Part shown: positions 1 through 60,315 of the stretch, piece after piece | Position numbering within the stretch: position 1 is the first letter of the stretch | Layout: each line of letters starts with the position of its first letter | Origin: Lophium mytilinum | Lineage: Eukaryota; Ascomycota; Dothideomycetes; Mytilinidiales; Mytilinidiaceae | Reading direction: 5' to 3' | Assembly: GCA_010093605.1 (NCBI GenBank) | Contig: MU004184.1 | Location: 2,405,737-2,469,736, forward strand | Length of the DNA: 64,000 nt | Notes under the pieces: model-generated | Seen by the model: only the letters and a program-made list of their open reading frames with translations | The model's database searches: none | What the model was told of the DNA's origin: nothing | Translations under genes and position numbers: made by a program

Positions 1-3000
1 CTAATAGAAGATTAGTTTCTAGATACTTCTTTAAAATAAGGTTAAGAGGAAATTTAGAGTAAAATAGTTTAGTCTATTTAAGATTATTACTACTTATCCT
101 CTTAGTATCTATATACTTTAAACGCCTACTAATTAAGTATTAAAGAACCTTATTTATAGTAATAGGTTAGTAAATGCACGCATTAATACTTATATAAAGT
201 TTTAGAACTAAAAAGACCCTAAATATAGCTTAAAATATTCTAATAATATATTAGAAGATAACTAAGTACTTTAGAACTAAGAGGATTTTAATAACGCTAA
301 TAAAGAGTATGCTACATATTAAGAAGAAGTTAAACCTAGTAATAATACTATTATAGATGTATTAGATATAGATAACGCTAATAGAAAGCTATAGTTTAAG
401 TTTACTATAATTTCTAAAGTAGAATAGAATTAGAAGATTACTAAGTATTAATTAAAATAGCAGCATAAGGGCGTAGAGCTCTTCTAGAAAGAAGAGAAGA
501 ATACTTAGAAACCGCCTAAACTAAAGCTATATTAAATACTAAGAGATTTTAAAGAGAGAGTTCTTAAAAGAGACTAACGGGCTACTAAGAAAAAGAGACC
601 TAAGAAGGGTTAATTAACTATTATACTAGCATAGGTTACTAGCTTTATAGTTATATAATATAAAAATGCAGGTAAAACTACTATAAATACTTATTAGAAA
701 GTTTATATATATAAGCTAGAGATAAGTTAAGATAAGCTTAATATTCTACAGGGAACTAGTAATTATACAGCACCTATAGAATAACCTAATAATATATTAG
801 TACTAGCTATAGATACTAATAATAGAAAGCTATTAAGATTAGCTTAAGATAGTAATAGAATACCTAAGAGTATAAATACTACTACCTAATTACCTAATAC
901 TATATACTAAGATAATAATAAGTATAATAGAGATACTATTATTATATAGCTAAGGGGTAATACTATTATTTAAACTAATAATACTACAGAGCTGCAGAAT
1001 AAAAAAATTAACTTAAGAGCTAAGGATACTAAAATGCGCATAAATAATAAGTCCTTAGATAAAAATACTAACTCTAATATTTAATTAGAGAGCTCCTCTA
1101 GTAGTAATACTAGTATAATAGATATTAAAGATAATAAGAATACTAGTAGTAATTATAAGTTAGATTTAAATAGTAATTTTAATACACCTATAATATAACC
1201 TACCTAAGCTCTTAATATAGAGTTATATAAAAGAAAGTATAAAAGAGCTTAAATAGCACTTCTATTCTAAGCTAATAGAGTATTAGAAGAACTCTATATA
1301 TTTATTATCTAGATTTTCTTTATTAATTTAGATTTAAGCGTTTAATTCTTTATTATTACTTATTTAGCTATATTTTATCTTTAGAGAATTAAAAAGATAA
1401 TAAATTTAAGAACCTATATTAGAGATTAACTAAGCTAAGCTTATACTTTTATTATACTTAACCCTTCTTATATCTAGAAGGGGAGGGAAAATTAATACTT
1501 TTCTATTAATACTAGCTAAGCTAATATACTCTTAGTTCTTCTAGATAGCTATTCTACTACTAAAACTTCTTCTACTAGGACTTCTATAGCTACTACTACT
1601 ACTAGAATAGCTATTATTATCCTTCTAAGGCTATTTTAGAGCAGCGCTCTAAGTTAATATATTTTAACTATACTTACTAGCCCTATTCTCCTAGAGAATA
1701 GTATTTAAAGAGTCTATCTAATACTAAGTAGATTTTAGAGGGGTCTCTCTAGTAGAGTTATTATTATTACTAATAGATAACTAGAATAAGCGGCGGCTTA
1801 ATAGTATATTAGAAGTAGGCTCTTAAAAGCGCTATAGAGAACCTAAAGAAAAATAATAAAAAGTTAAAGAAGTTAGAGAAGTTAAAGGCTAAGTAGAAGA
1901 GGTTAGAAAGTATTACCTTAGACTTTAAGTACTAGAACCTAAAGTAGCTATATTTTCTAAACCTAATACAGCTATAGATAATTACTAAAAGCTAGATCTT
2001 AAACTAGAAGCCTAAGTAGAAGTACTACTAGAGCTCTATAGGTAATATTAAGCTATTAAAGATTTAGAAGTATAAGAAATATCTAGATTATATAGTAGTA
2101 TAGTAGTTTTTTTTTAAATTAATTCTATTAGTAGCTATATAGCTAAGGCTAAGTATACTATATTTTTAGCTAGGTTTTTAAGAGATTCTTAGTCGCGAAG
2201 AGAAGATATAAACTTAGTAATATTATAGTAACCTTATTAAATATAAGCCCTAGTAGTCTTTTAATAAGCTATTAAAGTCTACCCTTCTATAATAGGTATT
2301 AGCTAAGTTTTAAGATACTCTAAAAGTAAAGCTAAACTTACCTTAGAATAAATAAGTCCTCTTACTACCCTACTAATAATATTCTATATAAAATCCTTAG
2401 TAGAGAGAAGAACTATCTAAATTATAAGCCTAAATATATTTACTAAACTAATAGCCTTCTAAGAATATTCTTAAGTAGTAGTTGCAGGCCCTATAGATAG
2501 AAGAAGCCCTAGAATTCTTACTATAATCTACTCTTAAGCCTAAATACTATTTAAGAAGCCCTATAAAGTATAAAGTATAGCTATAGTTCTTATTTAAAAT
2601 TAGTTTATTATTTCTAATATTACTAAGAAACTCTTAAAGTAGTATATTCCTCTAAACTCTACTACTGCCTTTAAACTTTAGAAGGTATTTAGCATAGTTT
2701 AGATAATTAAAAGCTATAGTATAGTATTAGAAGGCTTAAGAAAGTAGAATAGAGTTATTAAAGGCTATTAGCTATATATAGTATAGATTATAGAACCTCT
2801 AAACTATTAAAAGGTTAATAATTAATATAAGTATAATAGTAACTAGATCTTATTAGCTTTATTAAAAGAAAAAGCTAAACTATTATTAAAAACTTACTAT
2901 AGGCCTATAAGGCTTTATAGACTAAAATACCTAAGAATTTATAAAAGCGCGGAACCTTATAACTATAGCTAGGGTCTAAAGAATTATTATCTCTATCTCT

Positions 3001-4105
3001 ACCTCTTTCTAAATAAAGTAAGCTAGAGGCTATAGAACCTAGCTAGGTATTAAGTAATATTATAACGCTAATTTAGAGTAAAAAAAAGTAGCCTAGAAGC
3101 TAAGAGAGAGAAAGTTCTAATAAAAGAATTAATAAAGAAAGATAATAGTAATAAGAAGAGAAGCTATAAGAGTCTTTAATAAACCTTTAAAGTTAAGAGA
3201 AGCTTAAACCTTAAAAAAGAAAGTTAAGTATAGAAGAAAGAGTATAAGAGTATTAAAAAGGCCTTATATATACTTTAGATTCTTAAATCTATTACTTCTA
3301 GATTACTACTTACTACTCTATAACGCACTAATAGCTTCTTAGACCTATATAAGATTATAAGCTTCTTACTAAATTATAAGGAACTTTATAAAATCTCTAA
3401 TAAGCCTATTATTAGCTATTATAGCTCTAATTATATATTAGAACCTAATATATGCTAGCATACTAATATTTATATTACCTTATAATTCCCTCTATTATAA
3501 ATACTTTATAATCTCTTTTAATTCTTTCTTACTATTAAGCTATTAAATATTCTAATACCTCTATTATTTTCTACTAATATAGTAGTAGACCTCTAAAGAA
3601 TTCTAAACCCCTCTTAGATAATATTACTATAATATTACTACCTACTAACGCACCTTTTATAGTATTATATACCCCTAGAAGCTTTAAAGCTTCTAAAAAA
3701 GCTAATAGCCTAATATACTAATAATGCATAGTATAAAGTAGTAAGCGCAACGTGCTATTATAAATATAATTTAATAGTAAATTAGATCTAGAAGAAAAGA
3801 ATATAGAATTCTTAATATATAGTTAATATTTAGATATTATATATATAATATATAAATCTACTATAGAAATACTTTTCTATATAGATCTAGTATAATTAAA
3901 ATCTATATAGGCCTTTCTAATATATATATAGCCTAGCTAGATTTCTATATAGAATTAATATCTATTATTCTCTAAATTCTTATATTATATAATTAGAAAT
4001 ATTATATTTATTCTATATAGGTTCCCTAATAAAAATATAGATATAGGTATAATAAATATACTAGTTTATTAAAGAATACTATAATATAGATTATTATTCT
4101 ATCTA
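1..4105. repeat. RIP-degenerated repeat block
   Basis: This block is very rich in A and T and almost free of the dinucleotides CA and TG. The few that remain are mostly in GCA/TGC or TACA contexts. ATG is therefore nearly absent and no ORF of useful length exists on either strand. This is the known outcome of repeat-induced point mutation, which turns CpA into TpA on both strands of duplicated DNA. The change to normal composition near 4106-4140 is abrupt. The element that was mutated cannot be named from the remaining sequence. It starts at the window edge, so its left limit is unknown. Confidence 0.85.
3806..4015. repeat. RIP-mutated copy of the 18.7 kb repeat
   Basis: This stretch aligns almost without gaps to 18676-18885. 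Most differences are C to T or G to A relative to that copy. For example GAATTCTCGATACAC there is GAATTCTTAATATAT here, and the CACGTGATGTA arm there is TATATAATATA here. It is the direct evidence that the left block was shaped by RIP. Confidence 0.8.
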
Positions 4106-41842: not shown

Positions 41843-42868
41843 CTACATCTCATACCCATACCGCTCTGGCGCCTGGCCTTTATTCCGCCTCTCAGACCTC
41901 ACCTTCTCCGCCAAATCATAATCCCGCCGCGTCTTTTCGGCTTTCGCTATCTTCTTCGCCGCAATAGCCCTCCGTTCTGCCTTCTCGAGACACTTCGCAC
42001 ATACCCACTTCTCATTCTCCTTGGGTATCTCGGCTTCCTTCATTCCAATACACGGGATATGATACCACTCAACCTCACACTTAACTCCCTGGCACATCTC
42101 GCAGTCTTTCTCAAACACCCCGCAACTCTCGCAGCCCTTGTTCGTATTATCGCACTTGATCATAGTGCCGCCAAAATCGTGGAGCCCGCAGGTGCAGCAG
42201 TGAACCTCACCTACTTGCTCGGTGCAGATAGGGCAGAACCAGTCACGCTCGTCGAGAAGCTGCTCCGGGGTAACGGTGATGCTAATGCAAGAAAGGTGGA
42301 AGAGGGGATCCCCGGGGTGGTTCTGAAATTTACATCGCATCAGCTTCTCTCCGGCGTTTTTGCGACCTTGGCAGAAGCAGTGGTTCTCTAGACTACGGCA
42401 GTCGGCGCAATACCATGCAGTGTTGCCGCGTGGGCGACGGAGAAGACCGGCGCATGATTTGAGGTGGGACGTCTTCTTGCACCATTTGTTGTGGCATGAG
42501 ATGAGGCTCTCGGCTTTCTTCTTCCCGCAATGGCAAGCGGACTCGGCGTTGGGTGGAGCCGTCTGAGCTCCTTCGTTGGTGGTCAGTTTTCCGAAGGAGA
42601 GGGTGAAGTTGGTTGGCGAAGCTTCACGACGGCGCAGGTTTAGGGCGGAGCGATTCGGAGGTTCTGCAGTAGTTCTATCGTACTGTTGTCGAAGGTGAGA
42701 GCGCCGTCGTGCACGATTGGATTCGTCAGTCATTTCCGGACTCCGACTCCTTGTCCGCCAGCTAGGCTGAGCCACCTTGTTCGATCCATCGCGCTTCAGT
42801 GCCTTGAACATATTAAACATCCCGACCTCCCGGTCCCCTAATTCACTAAAGCCACCCGCCTTACTCAT
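41843..42868 (-). CDS. PHD-finger protein, C-terminal half of a decayed gene
   Basis: The frame from ATG 42868 encodes 341 residues with three PHD fingers (C4HC3): CHC...CHNKWC...HLKSC...WYCADC, then CFC...WFCPIC, then CTC...WYHIPC...WVCAKC. The third resembles ING-type fingers, which read histone H3K4 methylation. Its loop carries an inserted knuckle CESCGVFEKDCEMC (C-x2-C-x6-C-x2-C). The paralogues at 44599 and 47470 have an N-terminal Cys/His module of about 200 residues before this part. Here that module exists upstream only as a stop-ridden relic (42869-43367), so this gene is a truncated survivor if expressed at all. A WRTRSRSP linker is conserved. Confidence 0.65.
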   Translation of the reverse strand: MSKAGGFSELGDREVGMFNMFKALKRDGSNKVAQPSWRTRSRSPEMTDESNRARRRSHLRQQYDRTTAEPPNRSALNLRRREASPTNFTLSFGKLTTNEGAQTAPPNAESACHCGKKKAESLISCHNKWCKKTSHLKSCAGLLRRPRGNTAWYCADCRSLENHCFCQGRKNAGEKLMRCKFQNHPGDPLFHLSCISITVTPEQLLDERDWFCPICTEQVGEVHCCTCGLHDFGGTMIKCDNTNKGCESCGVFEKDCEMCQGVKCEVEWYHIPCIGMKEAEIPKENEKWVCAKCLEKAERRAIAAKKIAKAEKTRRDYDLAEKVRSERRNKGQAPERYGYEM

Positions 42869-43367
42869 CTAAATTACTAGCTGGTTATCCTTGAAGTTCT
42901 TTACGGCGAACTTATTCGTCTGCCAAGCATTTGGATTAAATGTCGTTACAGTTAGTGTAATTGTTCTTCCTGTGCTGCTTTACAATATCTATATACTTTG
43001 CCTTCGCCTCATTAACTTGGCCCTATAGCTGCTCTTAATACTTCTCTAGTTTCTTGCGATATTCGGCCGGCCCATCAGGTTGTGTCCGAAGGCTCTTGAA
43101 TCTAGTGATGTTACGAGCCTTTTTAACCTCCGGCTAAGAGTCAACGGTGTTGAGCAAATATATCTTGCAGAGAAACTTGCGAGAATGTTTACTTACCCTC
43201 GCAGTTGAGTTATGGTCCACGCAGTTCGGAGCGCAGAATGTAGGCTTGGTTATATGAATCTAGTGCTTACATTGGAGTTTGTGATAGTAACCGCTGTATA
43301 ACCAGGGGGTAGTAGTTAGTGTAGTCCTAAAGTTGTGGGTTTTAAGGAAGTGGGCGTCGAACGGCAT
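42869..43367 (-). pseudogene. Decayed N-terminal module of the PHD gene
   Basis: From ATG 43367 the sequence matches the N-termini of the paralogues: YYHKLQCKH, stop, IHITKPTFCAPNC; DS, stop, PEVKKAR; QL, stop, GQVNEAKAKY; then, in another frame, FNPNAWQTNKFAVKNF. Three stops are TAG where all three paralogues have Trp (for example 43260-43262), and one is TAA at a probable Gln. One frameshift separates the last block. TGG to TAG and CAA to TAA are the two RIP-type outcomes. Confidence 0.65.
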
Positions 43368-44598
43368 TATGGCTGTATGGGTGCTACGTGCATTTAGTGG
43401 AGTAGAGACTAAAAGTTTAGGGTATAGGATTGAAGTGGTTGTAGAAAAGTAACGAGTTCAAAGCTAGGAAATAAAGCAACAGAGTAAACGGATTATCAAT
43501 GCACAGGCACCCTAGTGAATTAGAGCACCCTGTGTTATCTTACTAGATGCTCCTTAGCTTCAATGCGCTCTTACTTGTGTTTTAGGGAAATAATGGTCAC
43601 GGTGAATCTGAAGAGGGGCCTTGCATTGTTACGGAAAAAGATAGGGCTAGCTCTTGACTGATCTTGGAGGCTGATTGAAATCAGAGACTCTGATATTCTC
43701 AAGATGGGACGATTATAGAATAGTGTACGGACGGTTACCCAACCATAACTTCTGTGGCTACGACTATGTTCGGAGCAAACCCCGAGACTAGCGGGAAACA
43801 GAGACCTCAGGACAGAGAGTTTACAGGATAGACGAAACAGCTCATTCTTTCACGTTAGTACCTCAAATCACCGTCGAGCGCTTACGCATGCTGATCCTCT
43901 TTTCTCGCCTTCCTTCTCGCGGGTCATAAGGACCATAAAAATATATCAAGCGGAGGCCAGATTAGTACAACGATGAGAGGTGTGCACTTTGGCTTTACCT
44001 CCTTGTTCGATGAGATGTTGTTGGTCCTGCTAGTGAAATAGTCGCTGTATGACCTCATGAACGTAAGCGTGAGCGGGCAAGCGAAAGGTGTAGTGGGCTA
44101 CTAGCCGAGCACATGATCACTAAAACGCAAGCGGCTCGGGCATATTGACAAAGGTATCGATTTCATCACGGTGAGGGTCATGGAGGGCATCAATTTATCA
44201 GATTTATCTCGAAAGCACTTCACATTTAACCCGTTAATCCAACAGAGTAAGAGTCTATTACTATGGAGGTCTTTCGTGACCATAAGATCATAGAGATAGT
44301 AAGCTACAAGGACAAGCCCAGTGCTTCACACTAAGCCCTACAGTTGAGATCAGGGACCTCAAGCCGCCTTGCTTACAGCATCCGAGAACGAAGATTCTGA
44401 AAAGATTGTGAGAAAGCGACCTGTAGCGAGGAATCTGATCACTACTCTCACAAAACCGCGCGTAAAGGCAGTCTCCTTCATCATGCGATTTGGAGAGACT
44501 TGCTCAATAATCGTTCACCGCTATAGCTCTCGGTCCGTCCCGCTAATAAGTTTGTCTGACGCCCCCCCATGAGCGCCTACCATATGTTATCGAGCCGT
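43368..44598. other. Intergenic, nothing recognised
   Basis: Minor ORFs (44101-44283 and 44369-44572) have no support. No repeat ends were found. Confidence 0.45.
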
Positions 44599-46212
44599 CT
44601 ACTGTTCCATATCCATTTGGCGTATTCCTTGCGCCAAGTCGCCCACATCGACGTCGCGAAATCGCTTCGGTAGCAAACCCTTCGTTGCCCGCTCTGATCG
44701 CCTCAGCCCTGCTACTTCGGGCTTATGCTGTTTCACAGCGCCTTCTTTCGCCTTCTCCGCTGCGAGGCGCTTGCATTGAGCACGGTCTAGGCACTTCCTG
44801 CACTCCCACTTTTCTTGCTTTGGAACTTCCGTCATGCCCACGCATGGAAGGTGATACCATCCCACAGGGCATCGGTCGTCAGAGACTCGGCAAAGCGGGC
44901 AATCTTCATCGTAATGGTCGCAATCTTCACACCCTCGGTTCTCGTATTCACACGCAATCATAGCGATGCCGAAGTCAGGAAGCCGGCAAACACAGCACTT
45001 TGCCGCACCTTTGTTGGCCAAGTCGCAAGAGGGACAATACCAGTCCTGCTTGCCTAGTCGCTGATCTTCCGTGACAGTCAGCTCTACGCAGGATAGGTGG
45101 AACTGAGAGGTCTTGCAGCCACGTCCGTGACAAGAGATTAGTGCGTCCTCTTTGCGTCCACGGCAGTAGCATTGCTCCGGCAGGTCGCTACAGGACGCAC
45201 AAAGCCATCGCCTAGACGGACGCTTCTCAAGCTTAGCGCACGACTTCAAGTGATAGGTCTGCTGGCACCATTTGTTGTCGCAGATGATAACGAACTCTTC
45301 CTTTGAAGATCCGCATGGGCAAACGGACTTTGAGGCTGGGAGATTGGGATTTCGAGTGTCGTTTTTTTCGTATTGGGGCTTGGGTTTCAGCGACATGCTA
45401 TCGAACATGCAATGCATGTCCGTCGGCGAGGCGGAACGGGGTCGCCATTTACCACGTCGGTCATTCTGCGGCTCGTTTGCGAATCGATCGTGCATACGCC
45501 TGAGGCCTCGTCCAGGGGACCGCTGTCGAGTTCCATCCGAGTTTGGATTTGTCGACCGGCCATCTCGACCAGGGCTCCTACTTCGATCGCGCCATGGGCG
45601 TTCAGGGGCGACAGCTTGACGCATTTTTGTGTCCGCCTTTCGTGCGGCTCGATCGAATCGCTCAAGGATGTTGAAATTTTCAGTCTCCTCCAACTCTCCC
45701 AGCCCGTCGATTCCGTTCTTGGTAGTCATGTCCTCCAATCTCGCAGCGAGTTTATCCCCATCAAGGTCATCTACAGCGAATCTGTATTTATCCCATTCCT
45801 TGATCTCGAAAGAGTCGCTACCAACGTAGTACTCCCTCGATTTGTTAATGCCTTCAAAGTACTCCAGTTTGACCTCCACAACACGCCTCCACAGCTTACG
45901 GCGCTCAGCAAGCACTTCTCGAATTCCCTTGCCATTACCGGCAACCAATGGCTTACGTTCCTCGGCCCTAGCAGCCGCCAAGGATTCTGCCACCCCTTCC
46001 CAAGTCTCCATGACCTTAAGCATACATATTACGCAAAGGAACCTAGGATTCTGCTCGTTGCGGGCCATGTGTGGGTAAGGCTCGGAGCAGTTCGGCGCAC
46101 AATAGGTCGGTTGGCTGGTGTGTGCCCAATGACCGCATACCAGCTTGTGGTAATTAGCCAGGAAGATGCAGGGCACGGTCGTAGGCGTGGTTCCAAACTC
46201 CCTTGCTGCCAT
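44599..46212 (-). CDS. Three-PHD-finger protein with N-terminal Cys/His module
   Basis: The protein has 537 residues from ATG 46212 (MAAREFGTTPTTVPC), which aligns with the starts of the paralogues; the open frame farther upstream does not. Residues about 15-65 form a Cys/His module (PCIFLANYHKLVCGHWAHT, YCAPNC, CVIC). A helical region follows, then a linker with WRDRSRSPGRD, then three PHD fingers (CPC...CDNKWC...YHLKSC...WLCASC; CYC...WYCPSC; CVC...WYHLPC...WECRKC). The last is ING-like with an inserted CEDCDHYDEDCPLC knuckle in its loop. The C-terminus is basic. PHD fingers usually bind histone H3 tails, so a chromatin role is likely but inferred. The large ORF on the opposite strand (45373-46386) is a shadow. 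Confidence 0.75.
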   Translation of the reverse strand: MAAREFGTTPTTVPCIFLANYHKLVCGHWAHTSQPTYCAPNCSEPYPHMARNEQNPRFLCVICMLKVMETWEGVAESLAAARAEERKPLVAGNGKGIREVLAERRKLWRRVVEVKLEYFEGINKSREYYVGSDSFEIKEWDKYRFAVDDLDGDKLAARLEDMTTKNGIDGLGELEETENFNILERFDRAARKADTKMRQAVAPERPWRDRSRSPGRDGRSTNPNSDGTRQRSPGRGLRRMHDRFANEPQNDRRGKWRPRSASPTDMHCMFDSMSLKPKPQYEKNDTRNPNLPASKSVCPCGSSKEEFVIICDNKWCQQTYHLKSCAKLEKRPSRRWLCASCSDLPEQCYCRGRKEDALISCHGRGCKTSQFHLSCVELTVTEDQRLGKQDWYCPSCDLANKGAAKCCVCRLPDFGIAMIACEYENRGCEDCDHYDEDCPLCRVSDDRCPVGWYHLPCVGMTEVPKQEKWECRKCLDRAQCKRLAAEKAKEGAVKQHKPEVAGLRRSERATKGLLPKRFRDVDVGDLAQGIRQMDMEQ

Positions 46213-47469
46213 TTTGCCAGTGGAGTAACGCTTCGACCGGGATGTTGGAGGAGAAAGATAGAATGTTTGGGAGTTGGGATTGACCGATTGAGTGGGGTGG
46301 TGGGTGTGCTGCTCAGTGGATCTGTGTTTGAAGCCGCGGCTCTGTGGTGCGAGAGGTCGCCCTTTGTAGTCCCACGGAAGAGGTGAAATTGAAGAAACAG
46401 ATCCGGCAGCTGCTCTCCGCAACATCCTTGTGCATTCACATGCACCAGAAAGACATATACGCCATTTCTTGACTGTGAATCATCCGGTCGAAAGGATCTT
46501 ACCACTGAAACCAGTGTTATGAACTACGGCAGCCTGATTTTTAAACGGGATGGCGAGCTCGTAGGCTCAGCGACCATCTAGAATGGTTGCCTTTGGAGGA
46601 GAACTGAAGCTTTTTGAGAACCGAAGCTATCATCTCATCTCTAGTTAGAGCTTGGGGTAGTGCGGTGGTATTAAATGCTTATTTCTTGATTCTTCTATTG
46701 CTTTAGGCATCGTTACCATTTAAGCCAGCCTACTCTCAACTTTCTTTACGTCAGGTTGTTATGATTGTAGTGTTAGTGAGCTGAATATATGCTAAGCCGA
46801 ACACTTTGCTGCTCCGTGTGAAGTTTACAACAGCTTTCGGCTTTCGAGATTCTCGATGTAGCGATGACCTCTTGTACATGAAATCCGCCTACGACCACTA
46901 TTAAGGACTTACCAACTTCTAGGGTTGGTCACTAAGAGGTCGATATAGAGCTATGCTCACGGAGCTGCATGATATACAACACATAGAGCCCCTCATGTTC
47001 AATGCACTGAAAGGTATACGGCACTAGAAAGGATATAGCGGCTATCCCACACCAGCGCAGGGACACGGCGCTGAAATATCTGCTTAAGAATGCATTGTTC
47101 AGAGCATGTGTTCTTTGTGGTCGCTCACAGTTTGTCCCTTGCTTGCTTCCAATACGGATCTTGAACATCACATCAGTACTGGCAAACACTTTCCGTCGTC
47201 ATCCACTAAGTCACTAGATCGCAGTCTTGAAGGTAAAGGGCACTGCATACGTAAGGACAATCTACCCAGCAATGAATGAATTATTCTCTAATATCGCAAC
47301 GTTCATATGCCACTTCCCAAACACAGCGAGTTATCGGGAGGATCAAAGATCTATCCGGTGGCGTCGGGCTTCATTACTCCGCCATGAGATCAATGGACTG
47401 CAACTATGGATACATCTTTAAAACATAGTCAAGAATGAGTACCTCTGCTGGGGAGACATAATGCCCTCT
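46213..47469. other. Intergenic, nothing recognised
   Basis: The first 200 bases are the leader of the PHD gene at 46212. A minus frame at 46932-47189 is hydrophobic but unsupported. Confidence 0.45.
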
Positions 47470-49158
47470 CTACTTGAAAAGCTTCTGCAAGCCCTCAGCC
47501 AGTCCATCCACATCAAATCCCAGTCGCGCAGGGGCCTTGCCCTTGTTTTCTCGCTCGGACCTCCGCTTCGCTGCTTGTTCAACTTCTTTGCGCTTTTGCT
47601 CGTCTTTTACGGCCTTCTTCGCCTCAGCAACCTTTCGTTTCTTCTTTTCAATGCATTTACCGCAAGTCCACTTCTCGTCCTCACCAGGTACTTCGTCCTC
47701 CTTCATGCCAATGCACGTGATATGGTACCACCCGACAACGCATTTTGAGCTCCGGCAACCAGCGCAGTCGTCGTCATACCGATCGCATTCACCACAGCCC
47801 GTCTGCGAATTCCGGCTCTGACAGTTTGGACAGTCATCGTCATAGCGATCGCATGCATCACAGCTCTTCTTTGCGTTCTCACACTCGACCATCAGGGCCC
47901 CAGCCATGCAGAGTTTGCAGATGCAGTAGTGCTCATGCTCTGCCTTTGCGCACGAGTCTTCCCAACATGCAGGGCAGGACCACACTGCTTCGCCATGGCG
48001 CTGAGCCTGATTAACCGTGCCCTTGACGCAAGAGAAATGAGAGAGTCGGCTTTTGGACTTGCACTCAATGCTCTGACATCGCATAGTGGGTTCGCTGGCA
48101 GGCTTGCGACCACGGCAATAGCAAATGTCCTTCAGCCCTCGGCAGTCGCCGCAGTGCCATCGCCCTTTTGGTTTGCGTAGGAGCCCAGCACAACTCTTAT
48201 AATGGAACCGCTTGCGGCACCATTTGTTGTGGCAAATAATGATGGGCTCCTTGATATCCTTCCCACACTCGCAGTCTACCTTGGGATTGGGTTCGCCTGC
48301 CCTGACCTCTTTTGATACGGTACGATCTGTTCCAGCATTTGGATCCACCGTAAGCTGACCAAATATCTCCATCACATCCGCTCTTAGAGGTGAGATCGAG
48401 CGGCGCCTGTACTTCGGATTGGCGGCCGGATCAACAGCATCTCGATCGTGCATTCGACGTCGAGGCGATCGATCACGGCGTCTTCCCCGCCGGCTACGCT
48501 CGTCATCAGACATACCACCGGGACTCCGACTACGATCGCGCCACGCGGGCTGCGGCACTCGGGGAAGAGATGAAGGCGGAGGCTCGGTCAAGCCCGGGAT
48601 TCCCAGCTCTCGCTTATCTTCCACAACCTTCTTCTTGTCTTTCGAGCCTTCGGAACTAGCCATTGCGGCAGCTGCGACATCATTTTCAAAGTCTCGCCGG
48701 GCAAAGTCGTACTCGAGCCAGTCATCCGGGGAGAACTGGTCGCAGAGTGTCTCGTAGGCCCTGTTGCCAGTATGGCGCTTTATATGCTCGAAGTTCATCT
48801 TCTTAAGGAAATGGTATGCCTGCCACAGGCCATGCAGTTCTTCTTGAAGCTGATGACGATTCTTTAATGGGATCGCGAGCTGAACCCTGACCTGTTCGGC
48901 CTTGGCCTTAACACGGGCTATGTCTGGCCATGACTCCAATTGTTCCGAGAGACAGGCCTCACAAAGAAAGGGGCGGGAGCGTTCGAGTGGGCCACTCGTC
49001 GGGTACGGTTCGACACAATTCTCAGCGCAGTATGTCAAAGTGCTCGTGTGTACCCAGTGCTTGCACTCGAGGATATGATAATGGCCGTAAAAGATGCAGG
49101 GTGTCGTACTAGGCGTAATCCCAAAGTGGGCGGCCTCCATCAGTTTTCCAGACATCAT
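47470..49158 (-). CDS. Three-PHD-finger protein with doubled loop knuckle
   Basis: The protein has 562 residues from ATG 49158 (or 49155); upstream residues do not align with the paralogues. It has the N-terminal module (PCIFYGHYHILECKHWVHT, YCAENC, CEAC), a helical region, the WRDRSRSPGG linker and three PHD fingers. In the third finger the loop holds two successive knuckles, CDACDRYDDDCPNC and CGECDRYDDDCAGC, where the paralogues have one. Both keep C-x2-C-x6-C-x2-C. The finger then closes with WYHITCIGM and WTCGKC, as in ING proteins. Lys-rich C-terminus. This is the most complete member of the four-gene minus-strand tandem. Chromatin binding is inferred from the fingers. Confidence 0.75.
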   Translation of the reverse strand: MMSGKLMEAAHFGITPSTTPCIFYGHYHILECKHWVHTSTLTYCAENCVEPYPTSGPLERSRPFLCEACLSEQLESWPDIARVKAKAEQVRVQLAIPLKNRHQLQEELHGLWQAYHFLKKMNFEHIKRHTGNRAYETLCDQFSPDDWLEYDFARRDFENDVAAAAMASSEGSKDKKKVVEDKRELGIPGLTEPPPSSLPRVPQPAWRDRSRSPGGMSDDERSRRGRRRDRSPRRRMHDRDAVDPAANPKYRRRSISPLRADVMEIFGQLTVDPNAGTDRTVSKEVRAGEPNPKVDCECGKDIKEPIIICHNKWCRKRFHYKSCAGLLRKPKGRWHCGDCRGLKDICYCRGRKPASEPTMRCQSIECKSKSRLSHFSCVKGTVNQAQRHGEAVWSCPACWEDSCAKAEHEHYCICKLCMAGALMVECENAKKSCDACDRYDDDCPNCQSRNSQTGCGECDRYDDDCAGCRSSKCVVGWYHITCIGMKEDEVPGEDEKWTCGKCIEKKKRKVAEAKKAVKDEQKRKEVEQAAKRRSERENKGKAPARLGFDVDGLAEGLQKLFK

Positions 49159-50004
49159 GACGGCGATTGGGCACTTATTACACAATGATGTTACTGGCTG
49201 TCGATTGGGCGTTGTGAAGAAAGGTTGCCGGTGGTGGTGTGGTGTGAAGAGAAGACGGATTCTGAAGAGAACGAACAGAGACCTGGGCGATTTATAGGCA
49301 GGGAAACAAGTGCAACTCACAAAAACCAGTGAATGTGCACTCGATCGTGGGCCCACTCCATGCAATACGTAATTCACTGCGCCAAGCTATCCTTTCATAA
49401 TCTACCCTCAACTTTTCTACAGGAACAAGCCAGAAGTCTGGCCAAAGGTTTGTGCATACTCATTTAGCACTGCATGTACTTACCCCATGGGGTCTTACAC
49501 GTCTAGATACAGTGACAAGTCCCTGGCAGTGTAAACTAGATTGCCCCATGGCTCATTGACTGCTACCTAGCCTGGCCACCCCTCACAGTCCAGGCGGCAG
49601 TGAATCCGTGTGCCGTGACTTGCGGCCTATCATTATAAAATACATATAAGGGACTTCCCGGAGAACTTTTCCGTCTTGAAAAACAACCCATGCTTGACCG
49701 GGTCGAACTAGGACTCAAAAGCAATGTACGCTTGTCTAGGATATCTATGTATACAGACAATGCGGTACAAGAAGACGAGGCAAGGTCACTCAATTCTGGG
49801 AGTTGGTAGACGCAGAGCGCTCGTAAGATACGCAGCGCCAAATAATCTCAGACATTACCTACATTTCGAAGGCTTCCCAGGAGGGATGCAAGAGAATATT
49901 AGTTTTCAGAGACGTAGGTACCTTTGTAGATTATTACAGCCATCAACCTAGTACCTGACCATTATCTAGATTTCACAAGGCAGGGAGTACATCGAAGCCG
50001 TCTC
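49159..50004. other. Intergenic, nothing recognised
   Basis: Leader of the preceding PHD gene at the left; otherwise no signal seen. Confidence 0.5.
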
Positions 50005-51078
50005 TCAGTTCCACAGCTTCTCAATGCCCTCCACCAAGCCCTTCAAGTCGAGCCCAAGCTGTGCGGGAGCGTCGCCCATCACTTCTCGCTCGGACCGGCG
50101 GTGTTCACCCTCATCATGTGTTTTCTTCTTACCTTCATCCTTCGTGGTAATCTGGGCAGCAGGCGCTCCGCGTCCCTCGCGCTCGATGCACTTCGAGCAT
50201 ACCCAGGTATCGTCTTGCCCTGGTTTATCCTCAACAACGCAAGTCGCATGGTACCAGCCAACAGGACATCTGGCCTCTTGACAAGCCAGGCAATCGTTGT
50301 CATAACTGGCACATCCTTCACACCACTTGTCGGCGTTTTCGCATTCGATCACGGGCTCATCGGCTGGCTGATGGCCTCCACAGTAGCAGGCTTCAAGGAG
50401 ACCACGGTCCTCATCGTCCTCCGAGTTCATACCAGGGCTAGGACTGCGATCTTGCCAGGAAGCTTGTGTTACCGGTGCTGGAGCAGCTGGTTGTTCCATC
50501 TCCTTGAACATGGCGAAGGGTCCTAGCGCTCGCTGCTCTTCAGCAGCTTGTTGCTCTTTGCGCTTGATATCTGCAAACGTTCCCGTCCGGACGAATGCGT
50601 CTTCCTCGAGGTCCTTTACTGCGAAATCGTAGTCCGACCATTGGCTAGGCGAGAATGTGTCGCCATGTGTTTCATGAATCGCCTTCCTCCGAAGCTCTTT
50701 GATGTTTTCCTTCTTCATGAAGTCGTAAGCTCGCCAAAGGCCGCGCTGCTTCTCTAGAAGTTGTCGTCGAGTCTCCTTCGGCAGTGCGTTCCCAAGCTCA
50801 GATGTCACCCACTCAGCTTTGGTCTTTGCGTGTACTATATCCGGCCATAGTTCTATCATTTCCATGGCGCACTCCTCACAGAAGAATGGTTGCGAGTGCT
50901 CCTGCGCGTGGGTATCCGGGCACGGCTGACGACAATTCTCGGCACAGAACGTGGGAGCCGCGGTGTGGACCCAGTGGTTGCATCTAAGTCGATGATAGGA
51001 CCCGAAATGTATGCAAGGGGTCGTGCTTGGAGACGTCCCAAAGCTCGTGGTATTGAGTAAATTATGATTCGAAGACAT
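50005..51078 (-). CDS. Short PHD paralogue, N-module plus one partial PHD finger
   Basis: The protein has 357 residues from ATG 51078. It keeps the N-terminal module (PCIHFGSYHRLRCNHWVHT, FCAENC, CEEC), the helical part (GLWRAYDFMKKENIKEL, FSPSQWSDYDFAVKDLEED) and the linker (WQDRSPSPG), but lacks PHD fingers 1 and 2. The remaining finger begins CYCGGHQPADEPVIEC, contains the inserted CEGCASYDNDCLAC knuckle, and ends WYHATC ... WVCSKC. It looks like a joining of the start of finger 2 to the loop of finger 3, that is, an internal deletion that stayed in frame. Open and free of stops, so probably functional as a shorter form. Confidence 0.7.
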   Translation of the reverse strand: MSSNHNLLNTTSFGTSPSTTPCIHFGSYHRLRCNHWVHTAAPTFCAENCRQPCPDTHAQEHSQPFFCEECAMEMIELWPDIVHAKTKAEWVTSELGNALPKETRRQLLEKQRGLWRAYDFMKKENIKELRRKAIHETHGDTFSPSQWSDYDFAVKDLEEDAFVRTGTFADIKRKEQQAAEEQRALGPFAMFKEMEQPAAPAPVTQASWQDRSPSPGMNSEDDEDRGLLEACYCGGHQPADEPVIECENADKWCEGCASYDNDCLACQEARCPVGWYHATCVVEDKPGQDDTWVCSKCIEREGRGAPAAQITTKDEGKKKTHDEGEHRRSEREVMGDAPAQLGLDLKGLVEGIEKLWN

Positions 51079-57443: not shown

Positions 57444-60315
57444 ATGGCACCGACTACCGATTCCCAGCCCCAAGCTGCGTTGGCTTGCCAGCTCTGTCGC
57501 AAGTGAGCCTCTTCCCCAGCGCTTTCTCCACCCGCGTCGCGTCTGCAAAGCATGAACCCCTTTCGACCTTGCGTTCTCCTTGCCTCAATTTGAGCATGTT
57601 TTCGCATGCGCGCCGTGACTGAATAGCTGCTGACTTTTAACGCAGGCGCAAAATAAAATGGTAGGTCTGATGTTCTAGCTGCAGTCGCCGCATTTCTGAC
57701 TCCAGTCCCTCCAGTGGTCGCGAGCTTCCTCGGTGCGCAATATGCGTAGGCTCACAGCAAGACTGTCAATACCCACCAGGACCCTTGAAGCCAGGCCCTA
57801 AAATCGGAGCATCGCAGCGAGGTCGCAAACGACAAAAGACCAATCCCTCGGAAGAGAGTTCTTCCCAGCCGCCTCGCAATTCAGATGGCGATTCCACGGA
57901 CGCGAGGGGCCCCAACGCGGATCCCGCGGAATGGGAGAATCGCCCTGCAAACACTGGGGGAGCCAATTCATCACGATCCAACGAGTTTACTGGAAACCAG
58001 GACTTCGCAAATCGCCGCGGCTCCTCCGTTTCGAATACTGAGCTTGGAATCCAAGCGAGGGCTGCACACCGGCCCTCACAAGCGGGACTGGATGGGCGCA
58101 GGCCACTCTCGCCCGCGACCACTCCGTCTACCGGGAGCCCAAGAGACCAGCTGAACATGCAAAGTCTTTCCTTCATCATTCATCCTTCGCACGAAACTTG
58201 CACCCCCGAGACGGCCAAGTCCGATTTCGGAACCCCATCCCGAACAGAACCCGTGACGTTGATCATTGCGCGCACCTGGGTTGCTCTTGGCGTGAAGCCT
58301 CAGGTCATCTATCGATTGTACGTTGCTGAATCCTTTGAAAACGAAGATAATGCCATGCTTACCTCTTTTCTAGGGTCGACTTGTATTTCGAGAATTTTAC
58401 AGCCTTTTCGTTATTTCAACAACCGGTTTTCGAAGTGAAAGCGCAAAATGTCGCCTCATCTCTGCATCTCCACGCTCTCTTAGCTGCCATGTTCTCATTC
58501 GCGGCCCCCTTTTATGTTCCCGACACCACGAGCCCGAACGGCTTCCCCGATCCTGACAACCCTGCTGTACCAAATTCTGAACACTTTGCCGACCTCGCGG
58601 AGAGATTCGTGCAAGAATCGCTCATGAAGCTCGAAGATGAATCGCCGCCCCTCTGTTTACTCCAAGCCCTGATACTAACCACATATCGAAAGCTCATCAA
58701 AGGCGCTCGTGGTCGAGCGTGGAGATCACTTGGTACTTGCGTTCGCCTAGCTTACGAAATGAACCTCCATTTGATCGACTCGGAGGGCATTGGGCGAGGA
58801 GATGCACCACAGTCTCAAAGTCGAGATCAATGGGTAGTAGACGAAGAGCGCCGGCGCGCATGGTGGGCAGTTTGGGAGATGGACACTTTCGCCGGAACTG
58901 TGCGGAGATGTCCAGCCGCAATAGATTGGTCGCAGAACGAAACATACCTCCCCGTCGACGACGAGGCATTCTTTAGCGGAATTCCGAAGCGGAGCTGCTA
59001 CTTGGAAAGAAATGCGATTGACCGATGGAAGGCCTTGCATGAGAGCGGGAACGAGTCCTCGAAAGCCTGGTTCATCATCGTGAATTCTCTCATGCGAGAA
59101 GCACAGATGCTTGCAAGCCCCCGGGGAGTGCCAATTTCTATATCAGGGGCGTCCGATGATCGAGCATCGTCTTCAAGGACTGGCTGGCGCATGCTCCCGG
59201 GCAAAGCTTCTAAAGACGTGTCTGAAAGGCTGGGAGCAATATCGAATGCCCTTCGCTGTATCTCTCTGACGCTCCCACCATCCCTTAAGTACCGGAACCA
59301 ATATTTGAGCTTCGAGTCCACAGGACCCGACGATGCGAATTCCCCGCGCAGGCTGCATAGTGCCATCTACAGCATTCATCTCATGATTGCGCTAGCCAAG
59401 CTCATGATACATCACTATTACGTCTTCTCGGTGCCACCAGAAAACACGCCAACTGTTTCAACTGAGGATCCTACCCACACTACAAAGGAGAAATCTGGAC
59501 ACTGGCAGTATCGGCCTTCTGGACTCGCCCTTGACCAGTACTTCGAAGCCGCCGACGACATCCTCACCATCATTAACAGGAGCCACGAAGACCATGTCCG
59601 CTACGTGAATCCATTCCTAGCAAGCACCGTATGGCTTGCGGCGGCAGCTCAACTTATTTCGAGAGTTTTTGGCTCTCCGAACACGGACGCAAACCTTGCG
59701 AGGTCCAAATTTGAGGTCCTGTATCTGCTGCATAAGCAATTCGTCAACTACTGGGGCATATTCACGGCATTGCAGGAGAACTTGAACACTCTTGAAGCAC
59801 GTCTTGAACGCATCAGCGCACGACTGAATGGAAGTGAAGATCCGGGTTCTCGGCCTATGACTAATGGGCAGAGTTCGCGCCCGAAGACAGCGGCGAGCAA
59901 TCACACAAACCCCAACGACTCGCAGACGGCGTCGAACAACACCACCAATCATGCCTCTCCAAACCTCTACCACATTCCTCGCTCCGAAATTCCCCCATTC
60001 TCGACTATGAACCACCTACAGCTGGTCCAAAGCCCGCGCCAACAGCAGCAGCATCCACAACAACAACAGCAGCAGCAAGAGCACACCATGCACGACCCAT
60101 TTGCTCATAACATTGGAAACTTCCCTTCGTTCGGAGGGGCTCAGCAGAACGAGATGTTGGCCGGATCAATGGATGACCCAAATACGTTCAATGCGATGCA
60201 TGATTCAACTGGCGATATGATTGACGATCTGGACTTCAGCATGAGCCTGGATATGAGCGAGAGCGAGCTGCAAGGGTACTTGGGGGGCGTTTTGTCCGGT
60301 GCATTAATTGGGTGA
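57444..60315 (+). CDS. Zn(II)2Cys6 transcription factor
   Basis: Four exons (57444-57502, 57646-57660, 57706-58317 and 58374-60315) give 875 residues. The zinc cluster is split by two introns: C15-x2-C18-x6-C25-x9-C35-x2-C38-x6-C45, with the basic RKRKIK between. The second exon is only 15 bp. A disordered region follows, then a fungal transcription-factor middle domain (ENFTAFSLFQQP, LGTCVRLAYEMNLH, DEERRRAWWAVWEMD), and a C-terminus with a Gln-rich run (60032-60085) and an acidic end (DMIDDLDFSMSLDMSE) suited to activation. It probably binds paired CGG triplets and controls the surrounding genes. Confidence 0.9.

Follow-up and report, generated by a model that had tools for sequence, protein, structure and literature searches.

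A candidate repeatable Cys4 module within the ING-type PHD fingers of a tandem gene array in Lophium mytilinum

PHD fingers place their eight ligands in the order C1xC2, C3xC4, H5xC6, C7xC8. What becomes of such a finger when four further cysteines fall between two of these ligands? The question is raised by four genes, g1 to g4, which the open reading frame (ORF) list places as a tandem array, all on the minus strand, in a 64,000-nucleotide stretch of contig MU004184.1 of the fungus Lophium mytilinum (assembly GCA_010093605.1, positions 2,405,737 to 2,469,736; hereafter the window). The genome analysed comprises 43.2 Mb in 24 contigs, and the window sits on the contig that we call C4. Our best reading is that the finger common to the four genes, here termed finger 3, is a PHD variant with a repeatable Cys4 pop-out, each copy of which adds one predicted zinc site.

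Position of the insert within the finger

A six-frame scan of the window for C-x2-C-x6-C-x2-C gave seven matches, five of them within g1-g4 and the remaining two overlapping in a poly-Cys run (60042-60092) antisense to a long plus-strand ORF. The five copies, all on the minus strand, are CESCGVFEKDCEMC in g1 (42092..42133), CEDCDHYDEDCPLC in g2 (44890..44931), CDACDRYDDDCPNC and CGECDRYDDDCAGC in g3 (47821..47862 and 47755..47796) and CEGCASYDNDCLAC in g4 (50281..50322). The scan thus recovered, letter for letter, the motif that the first-pass annotation had reported in the last PHD finger of all four paralogues, together with its doubling in the gene at 47470 (g3). Shuffling the residues of the whole proteins gave on average 0.0085, 0.006, 0.0165 and 0.001 motifs for g1 to g4, where 1, 1, 2 and 1 are seen, and shuffling the C3-C4 loop alone, for g1, g2 and g4, produced the motif in 198, 155 and 213 of 200,000 trials, respectively.

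The fingers that hold these copies lie at 41990..42196 in g1 (C225 to C293, an ING-like core plus the insert), 44791..44994 in g2, 47653..47925 in g3 (with both inserts) and 50188..50388 in g4, again on the minus strand, the last three being placed by alignment and by a profile of the N-terminal half of the PHD finger (N-half). The description as last finger fits three of the genes but not g4, whose finger is single. In the alignment, the C4HC3 ligands follow in order in all four fingers once the cysteines of the insert are skipped (CxC, C(D/E), KC, WYH, C, CxxC), and the insert lies between Cys3 (MIKC-DN) and Cys4 (KC..WYH). The earlier placement between zinc pairs was therefore mistaken: the motif splits a single ligand pair, separating C3 from C4. 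Likewise, the 14 residues first given for the insert are those of the Cys motif alone, whereas the length added over an ING finger, whose C3-C4 gap is 4, amounts to 20-22 residues with one copy and 42 with two.

The resulting C3-C4 gaps are 24, 26, 46 and 24 residues in g1 to g4, so that finger 3 has the usual short spacing in none of them, and elsewhere in the genome the gap is 2-4 residues in 16 parsed PHD fingers. These 16 came from 22 PHD places that were read and 17 that were entered; five were set aside as their displayed frame was cut, bore stops or started inside the finger, and one (C9:1695143) failed the parser fit. By eye, the gap in the six unparsed places is 2 residues, apart from C1:1987907, whose C3 is not displayed. 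As the panel was chosen by Pfam and the parser took gaps of 1-5 only, fingers with inserts elsewhere in the genome could have escaped this comparison.

The ING-type core and the choice of register

The assignment of the core to the ING type, also made in the first-pass annotation, is borne out by a ten-finger profile that matched the ING1 PHD at 2.4e-14 and by an AlphaFold2 model of the g1 finger (pLDDT 81.2), which superposed at 1.4 A on 51 of the 53 residues of the ING3 PHD and left 25 of its own residues unmatched. By its ligands and predicted fold, finger 3 is a PHD finger. Its Pfam PHD (PF00628) scores, taken for the finger alone, are 22.2, 14.8, 10.1 and 20.1 bits in g1 to g4 and do not reach the gathering cut-off of 24, and NCBIfam gave a single match, for g1 and far below its cut-off, with none for g2, g3 or g4. 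Given the low Pfam scores and the unusual C3-C4 spacing, we file it as a PHD variant.

The same cysteines can be read in another register, in which PHD ligands 1-3 are the first CxxC of the insert and its last Cys; the finger would then be a gap-free PHD, or one resembling an extended PHD, with the upstream CxC...MIxC half as the additional part. Several observations speak for it and thus against an insertion: the Pfam PHD alignment starts the finger at the first CxxC of the insert in all four genes, phmmer puts the end of the insert on the second ING pair, and an extended-PHD-like protein of the same genome holds CKICKTSVGACVSC, with the identical C-x2-C-x6-C-x2-C spacing. The structure prediction covers g1 only, and its outcome depends on the supplied alignment, which favours the insertion. 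On the other hand, the upstream half scores as a PHD N-half in four of four genes (the test had a weak control, which qualifies the result but does not turn it), it aligns with fingers 1 and 2 and with two ING PHDs of the same genome, and both structure models place strands in it. The extended PHD domain (zf-HC5HC2H) was listed for g4 only, where it scored 9.5 bits (cut-off 29.1), so that by profile these are not extended PHD fingers. On whether the inserted cysteines occupy the normal PHD places, then, the N-half profile and the structure model speak for a module of its own and the Pfam alignment opposes it, and we consider the gap-free register improbable. What calculation supports is the anatomy of the finger, its ING-like core, the point of insertion and the conservation of the insert. 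As to the full proposal, an ING-type PHD finger with its eight ligands intact and an acidic Cys4 module inserted between C3 and C4, likely by the histone edge, we judge the chances to be evenly balanced.

Despite this core, g1-g4 are not ING proteins, as the ING N-terminal domain (PF12998) is absent from the Pfam matches of their products (E up to 1); in the same genome it has matches on contigs C7 and C1 and one below the cut-off on C12. Compared with the ING family (ING1-5, Yng1/2, Pho23, Png2), their fingers are 20-42 residues longer between C3 and C4, and g1-g3 carry three fingers. Fingers of the extended PHD type (BRPF, AF10) share with finger 3 the motif spacing seen in the protein above, but finger 3 has an ING-like core with a CxC start. 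The fungal PHD protein Spp1 has the PHD core in common (6j2p was matched), and its extra integrated zinc finger stands beside the PHD rather than inside a ligand pair. The PHD-zinc-knuckle-PHD module of BRPF combines a zinc knuckle with PHD fingers, as g1-g4 would do, the knuckle of BRPF being placed between the fingers. A Zn2Cys6 cluster was also considered and dropped, as phmmer gave no more than a weak match to LEU3 (E 0.049) and no Pfam match was listed. As a separate observation, the protein with CKICKTSVGACVSC is encoded at locus L018 (minus strand, 1133-3076) and looks like an extended PHD.

Searching the genome with finger 3 of g3, g2 and g1 returned the four window genes and, beyond the cluster, no relative except weak PHD matches on contigs C5 (E 0.116), C12 (0.024, 0.113) and C1 (0.0042); the search works exon by exon, scores only the best candidates and could overlook a split copy. 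One scan of viral contigs gave no pattern match; none of 106 pattern-matched stretches in another scan of them and none of 40 stretches in prokaryote genomes were related, results that are silent on fungi. A Cys module inside the PHD C3-C4 knuckle is undescribed among the matches listed in a search of open-licence titles and abstract starts, with subscription journals largely outside. Since fingers of this type score below the Pfam cut-off, they could go unnoticed elsewhere.

Constraint on the insert in a partly decayed cluster

Could the insert be a drifting spacer in a decaying cluster, its cysteines metal-free or in disulfides? The cluster does bear marks of decay. Upstream of g1 (42868-41843, minus strand, 341 aa, three PHD-like fingers) lies its stop-interrupted N-terminal domain (42869..43365, minus strand), recognised by similarity, stops (three TAG and one TAA) and dinucleotide ratios. 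With TA/AT at 1.48 and (CA+TG)/(AC+GT) at 0.89, this 5' part shows the strongest ratios of the kind left by repeat-induced point mutation (RIP), judged against what we take to be the usual RIP thresholds. In addition, two fingers are lost from g4, and the contig end is 25.5 kb from the cluster. These points speak for a drifting spacer.

Set against them, 20 of 20 insert cysteines are kept across the five copies, and the synonymous divergence (dS) is beyond estimation in eight of ten copy pairs (1.58 and 0.75 in the other two), with pN, the proportion of nonsynonymous differences, at 0.14-0.45, comparisons that rest on small site counts. One copy pair, g1 with g3b, has no synonymous excess (pS, the synonymous counterpart, 0.48; pN 0.45). 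The RIP-like ratios are also absent from the four ORFs, where TA/AT is 0.52-0.68 and (CA+TG)/(AC+GT) 1.19-1.39. The sequences thus support a module that is constrained and varies in copy number, and we regard a drifting spacer as improbable. Between the two copies of g3, differences affect 6.0 of 7.2 synonymous sites and 5 of 34.8 nonsynonymous sites, and CDRYDDDC is kept in the protein; given this synonymous divergence, the doubling does not look recent.

When aligned, the other three genes, all on the minus strand, share 39-45% identity with g1. The g2 gene (46425-44599) is a 608-aa open frame with three PHD-like fingers, likely starting at the ATG at 46212 (MAAREFG), and g3 (49377-47470) is a 635-aa open frame from a GTG, also with three PHD-like fingers, for which the ATG at 49158 is the likely start. 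In g4 (51078-50005, 357 aa) the start of finger 2 is joined to the remainder of finger 3: its residues 225-250 correspond to finger 2 of g3, and residues 240-357 to finger 3, so that g4 looks like an in-frame fusion with one finger left. Finger 2 of g1 has no Cys at the C4 position. All four genes share a C-terminal tail pattern, RSER...G..P, in the alignment. The Cys/His N-terminal domain of the array (roughly YHxLxCGHxVxT...C..NC...C..C) is found again in further proteins of the genome, at loci L015, L016 and L017 (contigs C14 and C7), in whose printed open frames no PHD finger was seen.

Zinc, charge and histone reading

How might a tight turn accommodate the module? We infer that the insert binds zinc at an extra site of its own and contacts the histone. 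The two knuckles of C-x2-C-x6-C-x2-C would form a hairpin whose ends come together at one zinc ion, which would allow the module to pop out of the turn and to stack, as in g3; each finger would then hold three zinc ions, and that of g3 four. By alignment to ING PHDs, the insert would follow the C(D/E) turn and sit beside what we take to be their histone groove, at the edge where the H3 tail is bound. With this position, it would most likely offer basic residues of a histone tail an acidic contact or act as a partial cover of the groove.

A histone or nucleic-acid reader had been suggested initially. The net charges of the five copies are -3, -6, -4, -4 and -3, and such uniform acidity makes the nucleic-acid knuckle unlikely and favours basic partners, for example histone tails.

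As for the ability to read histones, we placed the aromatic cage on the ING sequence letters where we take W238 and Y215 of ING2 to fall. Of two papers, one names W238 among the residues recognising H3K4me3 (PMC4225485), and the other describes Y215 as critical for the binding of K4 di- or trimethylated H3 (PMC3395697). At the tryptophan place so defined, each of the four finger 3s has W and none of the six other fingers (1 and 2) does; the tyrosine place of finger 3 holds F in both g1 and g2, A in g3 and P in g4. Judging by these residues, g1 and g2 could read H3K4me3, and g3 and g4 look changed. The missing second aromatic in g3 and g4 makes histone reading itself uncertain and counts in favour of a different role, in which the insert binds zinc as a purely structural or protein-protein module and leaves histone recognition unaffected. 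Protein contacts would fit an acidic, self-contained module; the position after the C(D/E) turn, near the presumed groove, argues the other way, and we think this role unlikely. The most far-reaching version of the insertion, a zinc finger within a zinc finger in which a stackable Cys4 module splits a PHD pair without breaking the fold and its copy number tunes the reading of histone tails, is a tentative proposal that we hold to be possible but doubtful.

If the insertion is true, a C3-C4 knuckle that takes one or two metal modules with the fold intact would mean that the PHD scaffold is more changeable than its consensus suggests, and would offer for study a naturally occurring loop graft next to the histone groove.
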